Shown in pieces: positions 3,326 to 62,883 of a stretch of DNA of 64,000 bases. The notes under the pieces are model-generated. The model ran no database searches. It was given only the letters and a program-made list of their open reading frames with translations, and was not told where the DNA came from. The DNA is from Petasospora fabianii (taxonomy: Eukaryota > Ascomycota > Saccharomycetes > Phaffomycetales > Wickerhamomycetaceae), in NCBI GenBank assembly GCA_022641835.1, contig CP048718.1, positions 930,001-994,000 of the forward strand. Reading direction: 5' to 3'. The translations under genes and the position numbers were made by a program. Position 1 is the first letter of the stretch. Every line of letters begins with the position of its first letter.

Positions 3326-4522
3326 ATGACATCCACAGTTTCAAATTATCTTCCTGAGATCACTTCACTTGCGAGTGAAGTGTCTCACTTGAGTTCGGTG
3401 ATGGCCACAATGGGTGAGTCTGATAACGTCTATGAGACTTCACGTTCTCTTGCGTATGCTATGGCAAAACTCTCTGTGGTATCTGATCAGCAGGTGCTGG
3501 CCACTGCCACTGCGACTCAAGTGATTGAATCAGCTTCTTCTGCACTTTTAGTGGCATCTTCTTCCCTATCTTCTGTCTCTTCAGAATTGAACCAATACGG
3601 ATTCACACCAAATTTTGGTATCAACCTTGCCCTAACCATCATAATGGGTGTACTTTGTGCTGCTCATGGGGTTCTTTGTATCTTTTATCAATCATGGTGG
3701 TTTGGTATCACCCATTTCATTGCAACTGGTTTGGAATTTGGTGGATACATTGGTCGTGTATTGAGTTCATCAGACACTTTTGATAGAATTTACTATATCC
3801 TTCAAATCACCACTCTGACATTTGCTCCATGTTTCATTATGGCTGGTGTTTATTACCTTCTTGCTAAACTTATCATGATATATGGAGAGAAATATGCAGT
3901 GATGAAACCAATGAGGTATACTCAAGTGTTCCTCACTTGTGATGTTATTTCATTACTGCTTCAAGGTGGTGGAGGTGGCGTTGCAGCTGGTGCTAATGAC
4001 TCAAATGGCACCAATACCGGTAAGAATATCATGGTTGGTGGTCTTGTGTTTCAAGTGATATCTATGGCTGCGTTTATGGGGTTATTCATTCATTTACTTT
4101 GGAAAGTTGGATATTTCGGTAATGTCTCTGGTTCAGTCACAAGATCTTTCAACATGAGATACTCACATATCAGAAATAAAGCATTCTTCAGATGGTATCC
4201 TACTGGTATCTTTGGTATAGTGTTATTTGTCTTTGTTAGATCAGTTTACAGAGTTGCTGAACTCTCGGAGGGATGGAGAGGATACTTAGTTGTTCATGAA
4301 GTGTATTTCCTCGTCCTTGACGCATTGATGATTACGATTGCATGTATATTGAGTGTGGTGTTCCATCCAGGATTTGTATTTGGTAAGGAAAAGATTCTAA
4401 TTGCTGGAAGCAGGGCATATAAGAAGATGATAAAGGATGAAGAAGTGAATGATGAGGTCTTCGAGTTTGGTTCTAGGGAGAATTTGACGAAATCGGGTGA
4501 AAATGGTAGAACTTGGCTTTAG
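3326..4522 (+). CDS. RTA1-family seven-helix membrane protein (copy B)
   Basis: A 398-residue tandem paralogue of the gene at 1282, in the same orientation. It has the same layout: a Ser/Ala-rich N-terminal ~100 residues, seven hydrophobic segments, the TFAPCFIMAGVYYLLAK motif and the YRVAELSEGWRGYL motif, and a charged tail. The two genes match closely in protein, and some blocks are identical in DNA (for example about 65 nt at 2041-2105 against the block beginning near 4072), while N-terminal parts and tails differ. That pattern suggests a recent duplication or gene conversion of the core. The likely role is the same lipid or xenobiotic translocation as other RTA1 proteins; the substrate is unknown. 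Confidence 0.9.
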   Translation: MTSTVSNYLPEITSLASEVSHLSSVMATMGESDNVYETSRSLAYAMAKLSVVSDQQVLATATATQVIESASSALLVASSSLSSVSSELNQYGFTPNFGINLALTIIMGVLCAAHGVLCIFYQSWWFGITHFIATGLEFGGYIGRVLSSSDTFDRIYYILQITTLTFAPCFIMAGVYYLLAKLIMIYGEKYAVMKPMRYTQVFLTCDVISLLLQGGGGGVAAGANDSNGTNTGKNIMVGGLVFQVISMAAFMGLFIHLLWKVGYFGNVSGSVTRSFNMRYSHIRNKAFFRWYPTGIFGIVLFVFVRSVYRVAELSEGWRGYLVVHEVYFLVLDALMITIACILSVVFHPGFVFGKEKILIAGSRAYKKMIKDEEVNDEVFEFGSRENLTKSGENGRTWL

Positions 4523-13952: not shown

Positions 13953-15098
13953 ATGTCAACATATGCCCCAATTGTGACTTCTTTGCAGTCACAATTGGCT
14001 TCTTTAACTTCTGTTATAGCAACAGAGACCAATACTCATAAGTTCCTCCAAGAATCTCGATCAATAGAGTACGCTGTTGCTTCTTTACAACAGATATCTG
14101 CTTCTCAAGTGTTGCTTACTGCTTCAGACTCCTCAGTATCAGCATCAGCAACTGCAGGGTTAAGTCATGCTTCCGAAGTATTGTCATCTCTGTCCAAAGC
14201 TGATAACATCTATGGTATGGATCCAAGTCTTGGTGGTAATGTCGCTATGACTATTATAATGGGTATTTTCTTTATTGCACATACAAGTATGGGTTGGTTT
14301 TATCAAACTTGGTGGTTTGGAATCTCTTATTTCCTTGGTTCTGCCCTTGAGATGATTGGATACATTGGCAGGAGTGTATCTGCTGGAGACTCTGATAACA
14401 AAGATGCATATATGGTACAAATTGTTTGTTTAACAATTGCACCGTGTTTCATAATGGCTGGTATCTATTTCCTATTAGCACAATTTGTTATGGTTTATGG
14501 ACAAAAATATGCCATACTTAAACCAATTTGGTATTCATACATCTTCATTGCTTGTGATATTGTATCGTTATTGGTTCAAGGTACAGGTGGTGGTATCGCA
14601 TCAGCTGCTGCCAAAAGATATGAATCTGGTCAAACTGGTACAGATATAATGGTTGGTGGGTTAGCATTCCAAGTTGTTAGTATGAGTGTCTTCCTATTGA
14701 TGTATGGACACTTCTTTTGGAAGATTAAGTATTTGAGACCTGGTTTCAAAGAGATGGAGAATCAATTCCCCGAGGAGTTTGCCTCGATTAGAGCTAAACC
14801 AAGTTTTAAATGGTTCCCTCTTGTTGTATTCCTTGGAACTATATTCGTTTATGTTAGATCTATTTATCGTGTTGTGGAACTTTCTGAAGGTTGGAAGGGT
14901 TATTTAATGATTCATGAGATTTACTTTATGATACTTGATGCTCTAATGATGGCACTTACATGTTTGATATTCATTCCATTCCATCCAGGTATCATGATTG
15001 GTAAAGGTTCTATTGCTGTACCTGGTACTAAGAAGTATAAGAGACTTGAGAGAGAGAAACATGTTCAAGAACAAACAGATGATAAATCTGATGTTTGA
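13953..15098 (+). CDS. RTA1-family seven-helix membrane protein (copy D)
   Basis: A 381-residue RTA1-family protein with the long Ser/Thr/Ala-rich N-terminal region (about 90 residues), seven hydrophobic segments, TIAPCFIMAGIYFLLAQ and YRVVELSEGWKGYL, and a charged tail (KRLEREKHVQEQTDDK). It is the fourth member of the family in 14 kb and is clearly distinct in sequence from the A/B pair. The start is the first ATG. Likely a lipid or xenobiotic translocator of the plasma membrane or vacuole; the substrate is unknown. Confidence 0.9.
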   Translation: MSTYAPIVTSLQSQLASLTSVIATETNTHKFLQESRSIEYAVASLQQISASQVLLTASDSSVSASATAGLSHASEVLSSLSKADNIYGMDPSLGGNVAMTIIMGIFFIAHTSMGWFYQTWWFGISYFLGSALEMIGYIGRSVSAGDSDNKDAYMVQIVCLTIAPCFIMAGIYFLLAQFVMVYGQKYAILKPIWYSYIFIACDIVSLLVQGTGGGIASAAAKRYESGQTGTDIMVGGLAFQVVSMSVFLLMYGHFFWKIKYLRPGFKEMENQFPEEFASIRAKPSFKWFPLVVFLGTIFVYVRSIYRVVELSEGWKGYLMIHEIYFMILDALMMALTCLIFIPFHPGIMIGKGSIAVPGTKKYKRLEREKHVQEQTDDKSDV

Positions 15099-33661: not shown

Positions 33662-34420
33662 TCACATCTCACCAAGTTTTTTCATTAACTCTGAATTCTT
33701 CTTCTTCAACTGTGCATTTTCAGACTTGATCTTTTCATTCTCCAACTGCAACAGATTCATCTGTATATCCATTTGTTTGACCTTACCAAAACTCATCTGT
33801 TTCACCAACTCTTCATTCTCCTTCTTCAAGTTCTCCATCTTTATCAAGATCTTATGACTAATCTCCAATTCGTCATAACGTCCATTATTAGTAACTGAAT
33901 TACTTGGATTAAGAGTGATAGCAGTAATCAAACTTTCTAATCTCAATTTAGTCTCCTCTAGTTCCTGAACAGTACTATTGTACTTCAAACTTAACTCAAC
34001 AAACACTTCATTAAGAGATGTTGGAATCTTTGCCGGAATGGACCCAACAGTGACGTCGTTTACAACGTTAAGTGACTCTTGTAGACGTACAATCTCATTT
34101 TCAAGTGATTCTATCTGAGACTCTTTAATCTTAAGCTGCATATTCAATTTATCCATCTCCTGTGTAGAAGTTGGAGTGTAGTTGTATGAACCAGCTGTAG
34201 TCAATGGTGTGAATGATTGATTAGTTTGGTTGATGTTTGAGTTAGAGATATGTGATTGAGGGTAAGATTGTTTACCCCAAAGATGATTGGGAAAGTTCTG
34301 TTGAGAGGAATATCCTGTTGATTGCTGATTGTAATAGTTCATATTGGACCAGGAGGTGCCGGTGGCGGTGCCAGACATGTCCAACTGTGAGGTGTCCGAC
34401 AGGGAGAAGTCGTAGTTCAT
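33662..34420 (-). CDS. MUM2: WTAP/Mum2-family protein, mRNA m6A writer subunit
   Basis: A 252-residue protein with a Gln/Asn/Ser-rich N-terminal ~85 residues and a long coiled coil to the end. The segment ETKLRLESLITAITLNPSN, then GRYDELEISHKILIKMENL, is the core of the Mum2/WTAP family as I recall it. In yeast, Mum2 works with Ime4 and Slz1 in meiotic mRNA adenosine methylation and is needed for sporulation. It is shorter than S. cerevisiae Mum2 (about 366 residues), mostly by a smaller N-terminal tail. Confidence 0.75.
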   Translation of the reverse strand: MNYDFSLSDTSQLDMSGTATGTSWSNMNYYNQQSTGYSSQQNFPNHLWGKQSYPQSHISNSNINQTNQSFTPLTTAGSYNYTPTSTQEMDKLNMQLKIKESQIESLENEIVRLQESLNVVNDVTVGSIPAKIPTSLNEVFVELSLKYNSTVQELEETKLRLESLITAITLNPSNSVTNNGRYDELEISHKILIKMENLKKENEELVKQMSFGKVKQMDIQMNLLQLENEKIKSENAQLKKKNSELMKKLGEM

Positions 34421-36265
34421 GTCTGTAGTGACTTGACAAGTTATGGGTGTCTATGAGTTCAATAGACAGGCTCTGATGACGAAGATGATGACGAAGATGA
34501 TGATGAAGAGATGAAGAGAAGAGAAGAAAGTCTTTTATGAAGTTCGTTCAAAGCAACACTGTTAAACATGCCGTAGTCATGACAACATATGAAACAATCA
34601 TAAAACGGTTAAATAGTTGAGGATATCCAATCATTGTACTGACTTCTTCTTTATGAATATGAGTTATTTAGGGCACTATATGTCTAATTTAACTTATTTC
34701 CTAGCATCTTTTACCCTAAGTCATATATATCAAGCTAAAGAGATCTTCATCCTATCAAGTCTTGTGATGAATACTGTTGACATCCAGACATCTCGGCATG
34801 GGTTTCATCATTAGGAACGGAGAAACATCATAGTTTTAGTCGTTAAAATACAATAAAGAGAAGATCTTTGTGTGATTGATCAAACTATCAAGCTATCATC
34901 TATAGCTGATGACTGATTTATCAAAAGAAGTAGTTCGTTTAAGACCCTTGTATACCCCTCCCCCTATACAAGAAATTTATTGAAAAAGGTAAATACCTCA
35001 CTTATTATAATTCACCCTTTTGAAACAAACATGAACCATTTAGGCCATTCCACTATAAATTAACACTCACCTGAACATTCCATGCTTGACTCATTTGTAA
35101 ATCTCAACACTCAATAGATAAGTAATGGTAGGTATATTCATCCACGAGGTTTACCACTATCTATTAACATTTGGCAATGGAATAGAGTTTATGTATATGT
35201 CTGCATGTAAATGTATAATTAGGCATATTTAACTTTTATGCATATTTATACGAACATTATGCATATTCTTCGCGAAAAGTGCATAAATTACTGAGAAAAA
35301 AAAAACGTCTTTTTAAACATCATCATACACTTAGATACTACGTGGTTAAGGCTGTTCAAAAGCAGTATAACCATGCTCTGGATTAGGACTTTCATTTGAT
35401 ATAACATAGTAGCTGCTATATTAGCTGGTGGTTTAGCTTGATGGTGTCACTTCCAGACTGATATGCCTTCTCCCTGCCAACTTTGCTCTTCGTATTGATT
35501 ACGATCATATACAACGACAAAGAGGAGTTAGAGCCGTAAAGAGCCCATAGTGGGTAGATAGTGAACACATGTACTCTACCAATAGCTTGTACGCCTTTCT
35601 AATACTAATTCCATCATGTATGATCGTCCCTAGTGTCTGGCATCTTGTTCACCGAATGTGGCAAAATATCAACATATATTACATGATCATACACGATGGT
35701 ATCGCATCCATACCACGGTCACTTGCTTGCATTATAATCAGCTGGCTCACTTCTATCATTATAGATCCTCTGCTTCCTAAATTAGCCAATTATTGCATCA
35801 AGATATTCAAATCAGAGGTCTTGAGCTTCTGACCAAGTAACGCGTCGAGCTACAATAAACCCTTATTTCAAGCTGTTTATCCCTCTAAAGTTATTTAAAA
35901 TACTTCAGTTCAACTCTCATCATCTCGGTATCTACTAGGAGGTTGTATTCACCCTTGAAAAGCCAGATTATGAACGATTATCAAAGATATTTGCCAGTAT
36001 GGGCCCATGACGCGCATACCTACACTACCTCAACTGGCTACTTTCCGCAATAACTCAACCAGCGCACTACATACAGCTACACAAAAGGCTTTATACTGTT
36101 ACTATGTAGCCATTACACACTTCTATGTGCTTCATTCACGCATAGAAGCCTAGGTTGGCTCTCTAGCGCCTCTCTACAACATAGCGAGCTATGACCCTAT
36201 ACCTACGAAAAATTGGACATGCCCCCGCTCTCCCATGATTACCCAACATTTTTGACCCCACTGGG

Positions 36266-36697
36266 ACCATTAATATAGCAAGGAAGGGCCTCTTGCTTTA
36301 ATGGTGGCCTATACGCTGAAACTACAGGTTGTGTGCAAAGAGTTGGGCCCCAGTGAATTTGTCCGATGCCTCACTATGGTGAGGCATCACCTCACTGCCT
36401 ATGACGATTCATGGCCACCTGAGTATCCCCACCTGGGGGAAGAACAACACCACCGGGGTATCATCCATCACTCTGTCCACCCTGTCTATGTTCAACGTTA
36501 GTACCTCTTCCCAGGGGCCGCGGATCTACTTTTGGGTCAGCGTAAGGCTTTTCCCACTGCCAGGGACTATTCGGGATAGTCGTGTCCAGAGACCACCAAT
36601 TCCTTCCTATTCCATCCTAGGTGGCACTCTGACGACCATCTCCGTAGTCTTTACCTGGGGGGAGAAGTGTCCGACATCCTGGGATGACCCTCCAGGA
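36266..36697. other. Run of perfect hairpins in a GC-rich kilobase
   Basis: Four inverted repeats within 430 nt. At 36266-36305, ACCATTAA and AGCAAG pair with CTTGCT and TTAATGGT. At 36365-36388, GATGCCTCAC pairs with GTGAGGCATC around a 4-nt loop. At 36565-36581, GACTAT pairs with ATAGTC. At 36677-36697, TCCTGG pairs with CCAGGA. An ATTTTTG word lies just before the first hairpin. Such density suits a folded RNA, but no known RNA family signature (U1, U2, U5, U6, SRP, RNase P) was found. Confidence 0.4.
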
Positions 36698-37229
36698 TTT
36701 CTCCACCTGTCTGCGAGGGACACCACCTAGGGTTTGCCGACTTCCCCCGTTCGGGTTGCCAGGCACAGGGGAATCCGGAGCCTACTAATGAGGTGCACAC
36801 GAGCCCCCATGTCACTGTCCCAAGAAGGAAGCTCACACCCCGATGACTGTCGTGGTAGGTCTAGTCCACCGTCATGTGCGAGGCCATACTGGCTTCCCCC
36901 TCGTTAGATGGGGCCAGCGGGAGGTGTACGGAGTCCTTCAACTAAGAGGTATAACACCGACCTCCATGCAGACACTGACCCAGAAGAAGCTCTGGCCCTT
37001 AGGGCACCCTAGACATGTATTATATACAAGCTGGGTGTGATATAAGGCAACGGACTCCTCCCTGCTCGCAGCTCTTCTTTGGCTGGGCATCCTTCAACTC
37101 CGGTTCGAATGGTAACCAAATGTGGACGATTCCCCTGAGACCAATCCACCTCTCTGAGAAGCTGTCAACTGATAGCTCAAGTTATATTCTATTTAGGCAG
37201 TAGGGTTATAGATGCTCAGTATCTTGTCA

Positions 37230-37745
37230 GAGTGCGGTAGTAATGAATGAAGGCAGTTAGCTCATCAGCCTCGAACAAGAGAGGACACATGTGAAGACAC
37301 ATGAGTAGACATTACTTCCAGCAACTTAACTGAGCCAACACTATGAGCATTCAACAGTCACAGTGGTCATATCTGCAATACGTTGTCAAGATGAGATACT
37401 GGAATGGAGGCAGTTAGCTCACCTGCCTTGACTATAGATAAAATCCAAAAGGATGTATCATGCAAGGACACACATGTAAACATGTGTTAAACCAGTAAAA
37501 CATCAGACATAGCACCGGATACTCCAGATGTTCCCATTGACCCATAAGCAATCATTGATCCAGAATCTTATCAGTAGGTGAAAATAGTGAATGAAAAGCA
37601 GTTAAGCTCTTCTCCTCGACCTATAGATAGAAGTACCGCAACACTTCTAAAATGCAAGTTCACATGTGTTAGACACATGGTAAGACACCACTTTCACCCA
37701 AAGTGACTTGATAACTGAGCCTCCATGATACTGGATACGGCTACG
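37230..37745. repeat. Three diverged copies of a 160-190 bp unit with a conserved hairpin
   Basis: Anchor words GGCAGTTAGCTC recur at 37252, 37409 and (as AGCAGTTAAGCTC) about 37597. Each is followed 40-80 nt later by a CACATGTG-type inverted repeat: CATGTG/CACATG in copy 1, ACACATGT/ACATGTGT in copy 2, and ACATGTGT/ACACATGG in copy 3. Copies 1 and 3 also share a downstream AACTGAGCC. The hairpin is kept by paired changes while the rest drifts, which hints at selection for structure or for a palindromic binding site. Confidence 0.6.
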
Positions 37746-38302
37746 ATAGTATTTCTGTAGTAATGGGATATCATTTGTATGGAAACCACTTATGTATTAC
37801 ATCTATTGAAACAATGCCACAAAACAAATTCCGACTGTGGGTCGGAATCTTTGCATCGGAATTTTGTCGGCCGTTAATGCGAATGCGGGGTAGGAAAAAT
37901 TACTTTTGGTTGCGAATAAGGAATGGTGATATAGTTCTTTGTCGTTTGGGATGATTCATAATCAAGTAGTTGTATAAGGAGAGATGTATAGAGTTAAGTG
38001 CATAGCTGAGTTGTTAATGTTCTGTGTCAAATCTTAGTTACATGGTTATAATGTTACGTCAAGTTCGGTGTAGTTATACAGCTACAGTTATAGCTCTATA
38101 ACGTATAGGTAACTGTTGGAAGCTACTCATTATATAAAGCTAGCTTATAATACCCGGATCTCTCCGGCAGCCCGAGAATGATATACGAGCTTGAGTATTA
38201 CAGTATGGGAACATCTACATAGAAAATAGACCAACCCAGAGACCTCCTGGTTTCAAAAGACATTGTAGAAGAAGAAGCTCTGTCCCTATGTTATATAGAC
38301 CA

Positions 38303-38416
38303 AGCTATGAAGCTATAAATCTATAAAGCTATAAATCTATAAAGCTATAAATCTATAAAGCTATAAATCTATAAAGCTATAAATCTATAGCTATAAAACT
38401 ATAAATCTATAAAGCT
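38303..38416. repeat. 16-bp tandem array (AAAGCTATAAATCTAT)n
   Basis: About six to seven near-perfect units, mixing AAGCTATAAATCTAT phases, in the AT-rich right part of the gene-free interval. Probably length-variable. Confidence 0.9.
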
Positions 38417-38946
38417 GTGTTCATCCATAAGCCCGACAAAGGTAGCAATACTGTCAAAATCCAGACCCATTACTTAATGTCATCAGATCTAGATCTAAAT
38501 CTAGATTTCCTATAATCTCCATAATTCCGTGCTCCTCTTCTCTTAACCTTTCCAAATAGAAATGAACGCATAAAAGGTAATAAAGGAATAAAGGCAATAA
38601 AGTTGATAAAGAGGGTAATGGTCCCAGCCGTTCCTCCGGAAATTAACCCCGCGCTTAAGATGACTCCTCATGTGACTCCCCTTCCCTTCATAACTGTTTC
38701 TTTAGGTTGCCTAGACAACCAAGAAAACCTTTTATATTAATGTATGGTTGCCAATTCCTAATACGGAATGACGGAATGGTCACTTTTATCTCCTCGGTCC
38801 CACGGAGGAGTTTGTATGTAAAGTTTGTGGTGTATGGAATTTAGTGGAGAAAGGGAGATATGTGTCAAAGTTATAAGTAGAGCGAGGACCGGGATATGAC
38901 ATGCTATGACTGTCGTCTCTTACAGAAGTGATATTCATGTCATACT

Positions 38947-39576
38947 ATGTCTAAGCCCAAGAGAACAAGAACAGGTTGTCTGTGTTGCAGACGTCGTCAT
39001 AAGAAGTGTGATGAAGTTAAACCAAATTGTACTTTTTGTCGTTCAAAGGGTATTGAGTGTGAATGGCCCGTAAAGGGAGCAATATTTGTCAATTACAATA
39101 CAGGTTCAAACCCATTAGAATCATCATTCCAAATATCTCCACCAACACCAACTTGTGTCTCGTTGACTTCGACTAATATGTTTACTATATCAGATGATTC
39201 TCGATCATCAATTCCATCAAAACCACCATCATTAGCTAAATCCACAACTAGTGAATCTTCAATGTCTCCACGATCCCCACAGACAACTTTAGCATTCCCA
39301 TACGTCTTAGAACCACCTTTACAAAGACAAAGAACACCTTCTTTCTCTTATCTGCAACCTACTCTTTCACCAACATCTTCAGAATACAGTTATACTGCGA
39401 CATCACTAAACACAGATGCAATCACTTCAATCAGCAAAGCTGAACACAACCACAATCACAATAACGACAGCATATCTCTACCACCTATCAAACCATATCA
39501 TTATGCCCCAAGAACAACAGCACCTCCACAAATGGTTATCACAAAGAGACTCTCTGTAGACTCTTTACTCAATTGA
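38947..39576 (+). CDS. Small Zn2Cys6 transcription factor
   Basis: A 209-residue protein with a complete fungal zinc cluster at the very N-terminus: cysteines in the spacing C-x2-C-x6-C-x6-C-x2-C-x6-C (TGCLCCRRRHKKCDE, then NCTFCRSKGIECEWP), preceded by basic KPKRTRT. The remainder is Ser/Thr/Pro-rich and looks disordered. There is no middle homology (fungal_trans) domain, so it is much shorter than most of the class. It would bind DNA in the nucleus; targets are unknown. It sits beside the large gene-free interval. Confidence 0.85.
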   Translation: MSKPKRTRTGCLCCRRRHKKCDEVKPNCTFCRSKGIECEWPVKGAIFVNYNTGSNPLESSFQISPPTPTCVSLTSTNMFTISDDSRSSIPSKPPSLAKSTTSESSMSPRSPQTTLAFPYVLEPPLQRQRTPSFSYLQPTLSPTSSEYSYTATSLNTDAITSISKAEHNHNHNNDSISLPPIKPYHYAPRTTAPPQMVITKRLSVDSLLN

Positions 39577-51119: not shown

Positions 51120-51835
51120 GCCTAATGGACCGTGGCTGCATTACGGTTTGTTCCTTGCCCTCGCTCAATCAAAATAATAAATTCAAGGGCAACAAAACAT
51201 TAATTGATGAGATAGAGCCAATAGCAGATGAGGTTTAACTATATTGTCTGCTTTAATAACACCTGTTTTGTTTTTTCTTTTCAAAGCTTCCAGCCAATAA
51301 GAAGATATTTTGTGTTTTGTGTCGTGAAGAGAAAGACTCAGTACGCGCGCAGTAGTAAGGCAGCCCTCAGCCGGGACATGGGACAATCTGAGCTTAAAAG
51401 ACTTTTGATGGATATTCTTCAACTTCTTCAGCCCCAGGGCATGACAAACCCAGCTCATACCATCCAATCAGCAAGACGTACACCCGTTTTCTGTCGCCTT
51501 GTCTGCTCTCCCAGGACATGTCCCAGTCCGTACACTGGCTTGTACCCCCTGCTAGGTCCCCAGTCCCTAAGGGAGCTCAGACCCAGTCCCAATCCTGCAA
51601 CCCGTAAGATAACCTTAATTTGTCCCCCCCCTCAACTTGCATGTTCAACCTGCACATCTCTGCTTCCCTTCCTCGGACACCCTTTAAACCCACCCACCCG
51701 GAAAGTGCTGCCCTGTGAGTCGGTTTTGCAAGTGCATCTTGTATATAACCCCCCGGTGGGGCCCTTTCGGCTTCGTAAGGCCCATCTCCATACTGAAGAT
51801 CTTCGTACACCCCATTTACCCACATATACTCTACA

Positions 51836-53026
51836 ATGGCTAACAAGGCTGACAGCGTCTTTAACGTTGCCGTGTTCTTCGTGGTGTTCAGAGAGTGTCT
51901 TGAGGCAGTCATCGTCATTTCGGTGCTGCTCTCTTTCCTCAAGCAGTCCATTGGATCTCAGGACCTCGCTCTTTACAAGAAACTTCGTCTCCAGGTTTGG
52001 ATCGGTGCCGTAGTAGGTTTAATCATCTGTTTGGCCATCGGTGGTGGTATGATTGGTGCTTACTACCGTTATGAGAATGATATCTTTGGTAATGCTGAAG
52101 ATATCTGGGAAGGTGTCTTCTGTATGATTGCAACCATTATGATCTCCTTCATGGGTATTGCCATGCTCAGAATCAACAAGATGCAAGCTAAGTGGAGAGT
52201 TAAGATCGCCAGATCCCTTCTTGCCGTTCCAAAGAGAAAAATTGACAGATTTAAAATCGGTTACTTGGCTAAGAAGTACTCCATGTTCTTGCTTCCATTC
52301 ATCACCGTCCTTAGAGAAGGTCTTGAAGCTGTTGTGTTTGTCGCTGGTGCCGGTATCACCACTAAGGGCTCCAAGGCTTCTGCATACCCACTTCCAGTCG
52401 TTGTCGGTTTGATCTGTGGTCTCGCTGTTGGTTTCTTGCTCTACTATGGTGTCTCTTACTCCTCCATGCAGATCTTCCTCATTGTCTCCACTTGTATTCT
52501 CTACTTGATCGCTGCTGGTTTGTTCTCTCGTGGTGTCTGGTACTTTGAGACCTATGTCTTTAACAAGGCCTCTGGTGGTGATGCTTCCGAGTCTGGTGAT
52601 GGTAACGGTTCTTACGATGTTACAAAGGCTGTTTACCACGTTAACTGTTGTAACCCAGAATTGGATAACGGTTGGGATATCTTCAATGCCCTTTTGGGAT
52701 GGCAAAACACTGGTTACATTGGTTCCGTGCTTGCTTACAACTTGTACTGGTTAGCTTTGATCATTGTTGTGCTTCTCATGCTCTTTGAAGAGAAGAAGGG
52801 TCACTTGCCATTCTGCAAGAACTTGCAGTTGAGACATTTGAACCCATTGTACTGGATTAAGAACAAGAAGAAGAATGAGTTGTCTGAAGAGGACAAGACT
52901 AAGTTGTTCTCTGATGTCCAGAATGTTCAGTTCGACTCTGACGGTGTCTTGCACCAGGCTGGTGAGGATGCTGTTGAGGAAACTACAAAGAAGGCTACCA
53001 CCACAAATGCTGCTGCCGTGAACTAA
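51836..53026 (+). CDS. FTR1: High-affinity iron permease
   Basis: A 396-residue plasma-membrane iron permease that takes Fe3+ directly from a Fet3-type multicopper ferroxidase. Seven hydrophobic segments and both iron-binding REGLE-type motifs are present: RECLE at residues 19-23 and REGLE at 160-164. The SGGDASESGDGNGSYDV loop and YHVNCCNPELDNGWDIFNALLGWQN match Ftr1 closely. No FET3 partner is in the window. The promoter has CCAAT boxes and TATATAA about 90 bp upstream. Codon use is strongly biased toward frequent codons, as for a highly expressed gene. Confidence 0.95.
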   Translation: MANKADSVFNVAVFFVVFRECLEAVIVISVLLSFLKQSIGSQDLALYKKLRLQVWIGAVVGLIICLAIGGGMIGAYYRYENDIFGNAEDIWEGVFCMIATIMISFMGIAMLRINKMQAKWRVKIARSLLAVPKRKIDRFKIGYLAKKYSMFLLPFITVLREGLEAVVFVAGAGITTKGSKASAYPLPVVVGLICGLAVGFLLYYGVSYSSMQIFLIVSTCILYLIAAGLFSRGVWYFETYVFNKASGGDASESGDGNGSYDVTKAVYHVNCCNPELDNGWDIFNALLGWQNTGYIGSVLAYNLYWLALIIVVLLMLFEEKKGHLPFCKNLQLRHLNPLYWIKNKKKNELSEEDKTKLFSDVQNVQFDSDGVLHQAGEDAVEETTKKATTTNAAAVN

Positions 53027-62811: not shown

Positions 62812-62883
62812 TCCGGCATGGTGTAGTGGCTAGCACAGTTCGCTCTCACCGAGCAGACCGGGGTTCGATTCCCCGTACCGGAA
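62812..62883 (+). tRNA. tRNA-Glu (anticodon CTC)
   Basis: A 72-nt tRNA without intron. D-arm GTGT/GCAC, anticodon loop CTCTCAC giving CTC, T-arm CGGGG TTCGATT CCCCG, internal A box (GTGTAGTGGC) and B box (GGTTCGATTCC), and a T-rich Pol III terminator directly after. The acceptor stem TCCGGCA/TACCGGA has one mismatch, C6 against A67; the usual fungal tRNA-Glu has a T-A pair there. Confidence 0.95.

Follow-up and report, generated by a model that had tools for sequence, protein, structure and literature searches.

The window analysed here is a 64-kb stretch of contig C4, in a genome of 12.34 Mb and 16 contigs, and it holds an interval (34421-38946) in which no ATG-initiated ORF of 150 aa or more occurs between positions 34420 and 38947. 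When gaps were counted between 36 ORFs of at least 150 aa, after 2 of the 38 listed ORFs had been dropped as overlapping others, this 4526-bp gap was the largest of 35, against a median of 275 bp and a runner-up of 1861 bp, in agreement with an earlier, sequence-only reading that had called the interval gene-free. Its neighbors are a WTAP/Mum2-like gene (33662-34420, minus strand; 27.2 bits, under the Pfam cut-off of 35) and a gene for a Zn(2)-Cys(6) transcription factor (38947-39576, plus strand), both of which lie outside the element described below. Genes around the element resemble those of a budding yeast or a near ascomycete relative. The same reading had placed a shift to higher GC at the center of the interval, and this is borne out by a GC content of 53.2% at 36001-37000, compared with a top 1-kb value away from the core of 48.6% (51501-52500). 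The at least four perfect inverted repeats that it had counted within 430 nt were not recovered: a search for perfect hairpins (stem of at least 7, loop of 3-16) returned two in 36240-36700, compared with a shuffled mean of 0.39 and with 8 of 200 dinucleotide shuffles reaching two, while over 36180-37200 the count was again two versus 0.81, reached by 37 of 200 shuffles. Perfect hairpins in the core are above chance only modestly. At 38302-38427 the window also carries a short tandem array in which AAGCTATA and AATCTATA units alternate.

The core of the interval belongs to a dispersed family. Used as a query against the 12.3-Mb genome, it matched at least 14 places including the window copy, a count that, like the other copy counts given here, is a lower bound from a search of a single genome. 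The window copy and 12 other matches span ~1 kb each at 89-99% identity, and the match on contig C2 is split into two pieces of 83% and 86%. Each of the 13 fuller copies combines an arm (type A in six, type B in seven), the 1-kb core and three to seven modules. A type B arm query found seven places, the window among them, together with three extra short matches, and a type A arm query taken from locus L031 found six; the module region was matched at all 14 loci, with a second block in five of them (L029, L030, L033, L034 and L035). Family copies occur in both orientations, and two to four of them are present on each of contigs C1, C3, C4, C5 and C8. Their flanking ORFs are unlike between loci, with the exception of L032 (C4, ~214 kb) and L035 (C4, ~160 kb), where a common 175-aa ORF that is 95% identical is a sign of segmental duplication. 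The literature that was searched describes no such family, which does not prove its absence from print. Exact strings of the core, 5' box and module gave no matches in IMG/VR, nor did the core string in prokaryote genomes; neither collection holds eukaryotes, and both negatives are therefore silent on other yeasts.

The window copy (L025) extends over 35180-37720, with the minus strand as the putative RNA strand, and the anatomy of this block is common to the other copies. Its limits were read from an identity profile over the 13 fuller copies, in which mean identity is 34-37% left of 35180, 45-66% over most of the arm (where the alignment mixes both types), 95% from 36181 with a peak of 99%, 89% at 37081-37180, and about 50-54% from ~37780 rightward. 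Outermost on the left is a TGCA-rich motif (35239-35300, minus strand) that contains a palindrome around TTCGCGAA, has short matches with both arm types and is associated with perfect hairpins at 35237 and 35257; this motif would sit near the 3' end of the predicted RNA. It is followed by a variable arm of type B (35480-36160, minus strand), whose mean identity is 75% to six type B arms and 46% to six of type A, and by the GC-rich core (36165-37190, minus strand, on which it folds better), where copies are ~97% identical at 36165-36990 and ~90% identical at 36990-37190. Three tandem cloverleaf modules follow, each detected on the minus strand by a covariance model: U1 (37237-37321; E 1.1e-8), which is without one hairpin, U2 (37394-37503; E 8.2e-27), which was in the training set, and U3 (37582-37696; E 9.4e-6). 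These modules correspond to the three-copy hairpin repeat that had been noticed from the letters alone, and that observation stands.

Eight loci (L029-L036) match an additional conserved 5' domain, no match to which was found in the window copy or in L026, L027, L028, L037 and L038. An alignment of seven of these loci, from which L034 was excluded on account of its match being in two pieces, reveals a box around GTCATGTGGCGCTGGCTACTCTGCGACTGGGC together with ~100 nt of almost unchanging sequence, part of which looks like a diverged module. The domain lies beyond all modules at six of the eight loci, where a 5' end would be expected, and in L029 and L034 some modules lie outside it. An identical 12-mer, GTTTCTGTGGCA, is found ~90-120 nt upstream of the 5' domain, in RNA orientation, at L030-L033 and L035, where it is preceded by an X-box-like (RFX) sequence and followed by a TATA-like one. 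The 12-mer is absent from L029 and L036 although the 5' domain is present there. Across the genome it has nine occurrences, and five of these precede a family member in RNA orientation; the reversed control occurs six times. The window copy, being without the 5' domain, is probably a truncated family member.

The modules are 83-118 nt long and, when U1-U3 were folded singly, consist of a closing stem with internal hairpins, most clearly in U2 on the plus strand (z -4.6) and U3 on the minus strand (z -4.4). Trained on 25 U2-type modules in minus-strand orientation, a covariance model finds 61 modules at the 14 loci, every one of them on the equivalent of the window's minus strand and 36 of them (19 U1-type and 17 U3-type) outside the training set; there are three to seven per copy in the 13 fuller copies and two in the C2 copy. 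Within the 64-kb window the model matches only U1, U2 and U3 up to an E value of 5, and all 44 genomic occurrences of a module string are at the 14 loci, where the control string has no occurrence in the genome at all. Over the 61 modules, standard pairs make up 90.2% of 1394 cells, where slid structures pair in 24-62%. Two-sided changes are found in 236 cells versus a shuffled mean of 91, a value reached by none of 500 shuffles, in a control that overstates significance because the modules are paralogues from one genome. Two of the five covariation measures are weak, namely the number of pairs with two-sided changes (14 versus 12.5, reached by 105 of 500 shuffles) and the number of pair types (44 versus 41, reached by 44 of 500). 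When the U2-type modules are taken by themselves, in an alignment based on sequence only, the proportion of cells that pair is 91.4%, and cells with two-sided changes number 34 versus 13.6 (0 of 500 shuffles), with 22 pair types versus 21.2 in shuffles, 202 of 500 of which reach that count. We note that the module structure was drawn by eye from rows of the counted alignment, and this, together with paralogy, means that the numbers favor the structure. RNAalifold, unaided, recovers two of the four module helices, and a strict covariation scan of the whole element returns one helix, since the core varies too little and the arms are of two types. A long structured RNA had been among the suggestions of the sequence-only reading; covarying modules that lie on one strand support that suggestion, with transcription predicted.

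The strand assignment draws on several signals, which are not uniform. At paired positions of U1-U3 read on the plus strand there are 160 A-C cells versus 56 G-T cells, and as A-C on the plus strand equals G-U on the minus strand, the wobble pairs lie on the minus strand. This holds whichever strand had been folded to derive the structure, plus for U1 and U2 (79 versus 42) and minus for U3 (81 versus 14). The core folds on the minus strand with an MFE of -397.9 (z -3.6, centroid -378, none of 20 shuffles as good) and on the plus strand with an MFE of -349.4 (z -1.6, centroid -207, 2 of 20 as good). Among changed paired cells of the core, 57 of 139 remain paired on the minus strand and 31 of 150 on the plus strand in nine intact copies, with corresponding counts of 91 of 230 and 55 of 247 when 12 copies are used. 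The block at 36860-37190 folds better on the plus strand (alignment z -4.0 versus -2.3 on the minus strand), as do the single modules U1 and U2, while the alignment z of the remaining four blocks between 36180 and 37720 is better on the minus strand.

Arm and core differ in how they have diverged. Over 35480-36160 the two arm types are 76% (A) and 75% (B) identical within type and 46% between types, and global identity of A to B (47-50% in three pairs) appears little above that of identically aligned shuffled sequence (38-46% in ten controls). Within types, 36 pairs of arms show 103 indels versus 5709 substitutions, a ratio of 0.018, where the module region has 0.081 and the core 0.182; non-coding arms of one type, among the 13 fuller copies, carry up to ~30% substitutions almost without indels. 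Given that a single type B window reaches z -4.6 on folding and type A ranges from +0.8 to -1.9, we claim no arm structure. Core identity is 0.972 and 0.969 within the arm types and 0.971 between them, so that cores are mixed between arm types: variant blocks of the core are common to both, and the closest partners in 36990-37190 are often of the other arm type (L026-L028, 0.990; L029-L027, 0.985). The cores of L025 and L027, both of which are without the 5' domain, are 99.0% identical. Ectopic gene conversion would account for the identity of the cores better than selection on each copy, in which case this identity is no proof that the window copy works. Among splice-like motifs, TACTAAC is present in the core of 12 of the 13 copies, without any consistent partner on the 5' side.

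We consider it likely, from the sequence features assembled here, that the window block is a member of a dispersed family of 3-4-kb structured non-coding RNA genes on the minus strand, with a scaffold as the likeliest role. Complete members would be transcribed from the equivalent of the window's minus strand, driven by a promoter region with an X-box-like palindrome, the shared 12-mer and a TATA-like stretch. The predicted product, a non-coding RNA of 3-4 kb, would comprise the conserved 5' domain, three to seven cloverleaf modules, the GC-rich, stably folded core of 1 kb and a variable 3' arm of type A or B; with the 5' box and the outer arm motif as end points, it would span ~3.0 kb in L031 and ~4.1 kb in L033. 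As a scaffold, it would present the same binding surface again and again through its modules, all of them anchored on a rigid core; a protein, or further copies of the same RNA, would bind there, while ectopic gene conversion would hold the core alike between loci. The sequence itself shows a family, its anatomy, modules that covary on one strand and a mixing of cores across arm types; transcription, the ends of the RNA, conversion as the source of core identity and the role as a scaffold are inferred.

The main rival to such a host gene family is a mobile element that is non-autonomous and has an RNA structure working for the element's own spread, through packaging or replication in trans, and we regard this as unlikely. 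The scatter of copies among unrelated gene neighborhoods in both orientations speaks for it, as do the truncated members and the second module blocks in five loci, and the genome has three matches of equal score to a reverse transcriptase of Ty1/copia type (C2:934971, C4:61691 and C4:1069520). Yet the sole RVT_1 match is telomerase, the element's boundaries fade with no sharp stop (one end was checked by eye for target-site duplications), and several copies share promoter-like upstream elements, all of which count against mobility. The copies also contain no LTR-like repeat, self-comparison giving module repeats only, which separates them from LARDs. These are non-autonomous derivatives of LTR retrotransposons, and the family resembles them in length, in being a non-coding repeat and in having an interior that is both conserved and structured. 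An LTR retrotransposon or derivative was rejected as a candidate, direct terminal repeats not having been found in self-comparison of the copies.

Further readings fit less well than a family of RNA genes. A DNA element, be it a centromere, a replication origin or a recombination hotspot with palindromes that bind proteins, would sit with a GC-rich, homogenized core, a palindromic outer motif and conversion between copies, but G-U-type wobble covariation on one strand only is needless for double-stranded DNA sites, and we hold such an element to be improbable. The centromere that the sequence-only reading had proposed is unlikely, since five contigs (which need not equal chromosomes) carry two to four copies apiece. 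Hairpins repeated on one strand could supply a Dicer pathway with double-stranded RNA, yet the cloverleaves have short stems and no long duplexes, leaving this highly improbable. Equally improbable is a decayed protein-coding or viral gene family, which could claim a plus-strand frame of 152 codons in the core (143 aa from ATG) that is open in L027, L028 and L031, three of 13 copies, but shorter or broken in the remaining ones. Four candidate ORFs have no Pfam match, every arm frame has 6-26 stops, arm substitutions in 11 pairs show no codon phase, and core indels include lengths of 1, 2, 4 and 7 nt; on the grounds of stops, missing codon phase, indels and missing Pfam matches, a protein-coding gene family was rejected. 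Decayed foreign DNA, another of the earlier suggestions, survives at most in part: the window copy is without the 5' domain found in eight of its relatives, but between this copy and L027 the cores are 99% identical.

Comparison with known systems gave likenesses of style. At Rfam 15 gathering thresholds, the window yields only a tRNA at 62812 and the 13 other loci yield no matches, the models of GOLLD, ROOL, OLE and rRNA included; permissive Rfam scans gave sub-threshold matches only, none of which was accepted in the element. A tRNA-like cloverleaf shares with the modules a closing stem and two or three hairpin arms, but the arms, loops and size (83-118 nt) of the modules are unlike tRNA, and ARAGORN found no tRNA in the 14 loci. 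The yeast telomerase RNA TLC1 is likewise long, non-coding and from yeast, and it serves as a scaffold, the role that we propose for the present family. Telomerase RNA is normally single copy, whereas the family here has 14 copies, and nothing favors the telomerase RNA that had been suggested from the letters; no telomere repeat array was found at the contig ends examined. Concerted evolution of rDNA offers a parallel in a homogenized, multi-copy, GC-rich structured RNA, but rDNA forms a single array, and the family consists of dispersed single copies.

Nearest in style, by analogy and without detectable homology, are the ornate bacterial RNAs GOLLD, ROOL and OLE, bacterial or phage RNAs of several hundred nt whose function is unknown or poorly understood (PMC12286853). 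They share with the family the character of a very large, elaborately folded non-coding RNA, here predicted from sequence, but they are bacterial or phage-borne (PMC12286853). The present family, by contrast, comes from a yeast-like genome, is multi-copy and has its cloverleaf modules in tandem. Very large folded RNAs of unknown function have so far been found mainly in bacteria and phages. We venture, as a speculation with the odds against it, that the family could be the eukaryotic equivalent of those giant ornate RNAs: a multi-copy RNA of 3-4 kb in the nucleus, built on a rigid core on which its tandem cloverleaves polymerize or dock a protein at regularly repeated positions, while the exchangeable 3' arms (A and B) define two classes of one particle. 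A family of large folded RNAs in so compact a yeast-like genome, with its modular repeats, shared upstream elements and homogenized core, would make the function of such RNAs accessible to genetics in a eukaryote. It would also illustrate how one RNA domain stays constant across loci while the adjoining arm diverges nearly without indels.

Several observations were made beside the element. The genome gave no match to 5S rRNA. Contig C16 (51.6 kb) is AT-rich and mitochondrial-looking, and at L059 on contig C12 a 135-bp repeat is present in two copies (1159-1441), with a consensus resembling a fungal cellulose-binding domain. Window ORFs 1282-2517, 3326-4522 and 13953-15098 have alike starts (SLxSEVS/SLxSQLAS...SVMAT or SVIAT) and are probably a local gene family. 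The pantothenate kinase ORF contains four CTG codons: two align with leucines in yeast Cab1 (positions 228 and 342), another aligns with an isoleucine, and the remaining one lies beyond the alignment; because two of the four are at aligned leucines, CTG probably encodes leucine in this genome.
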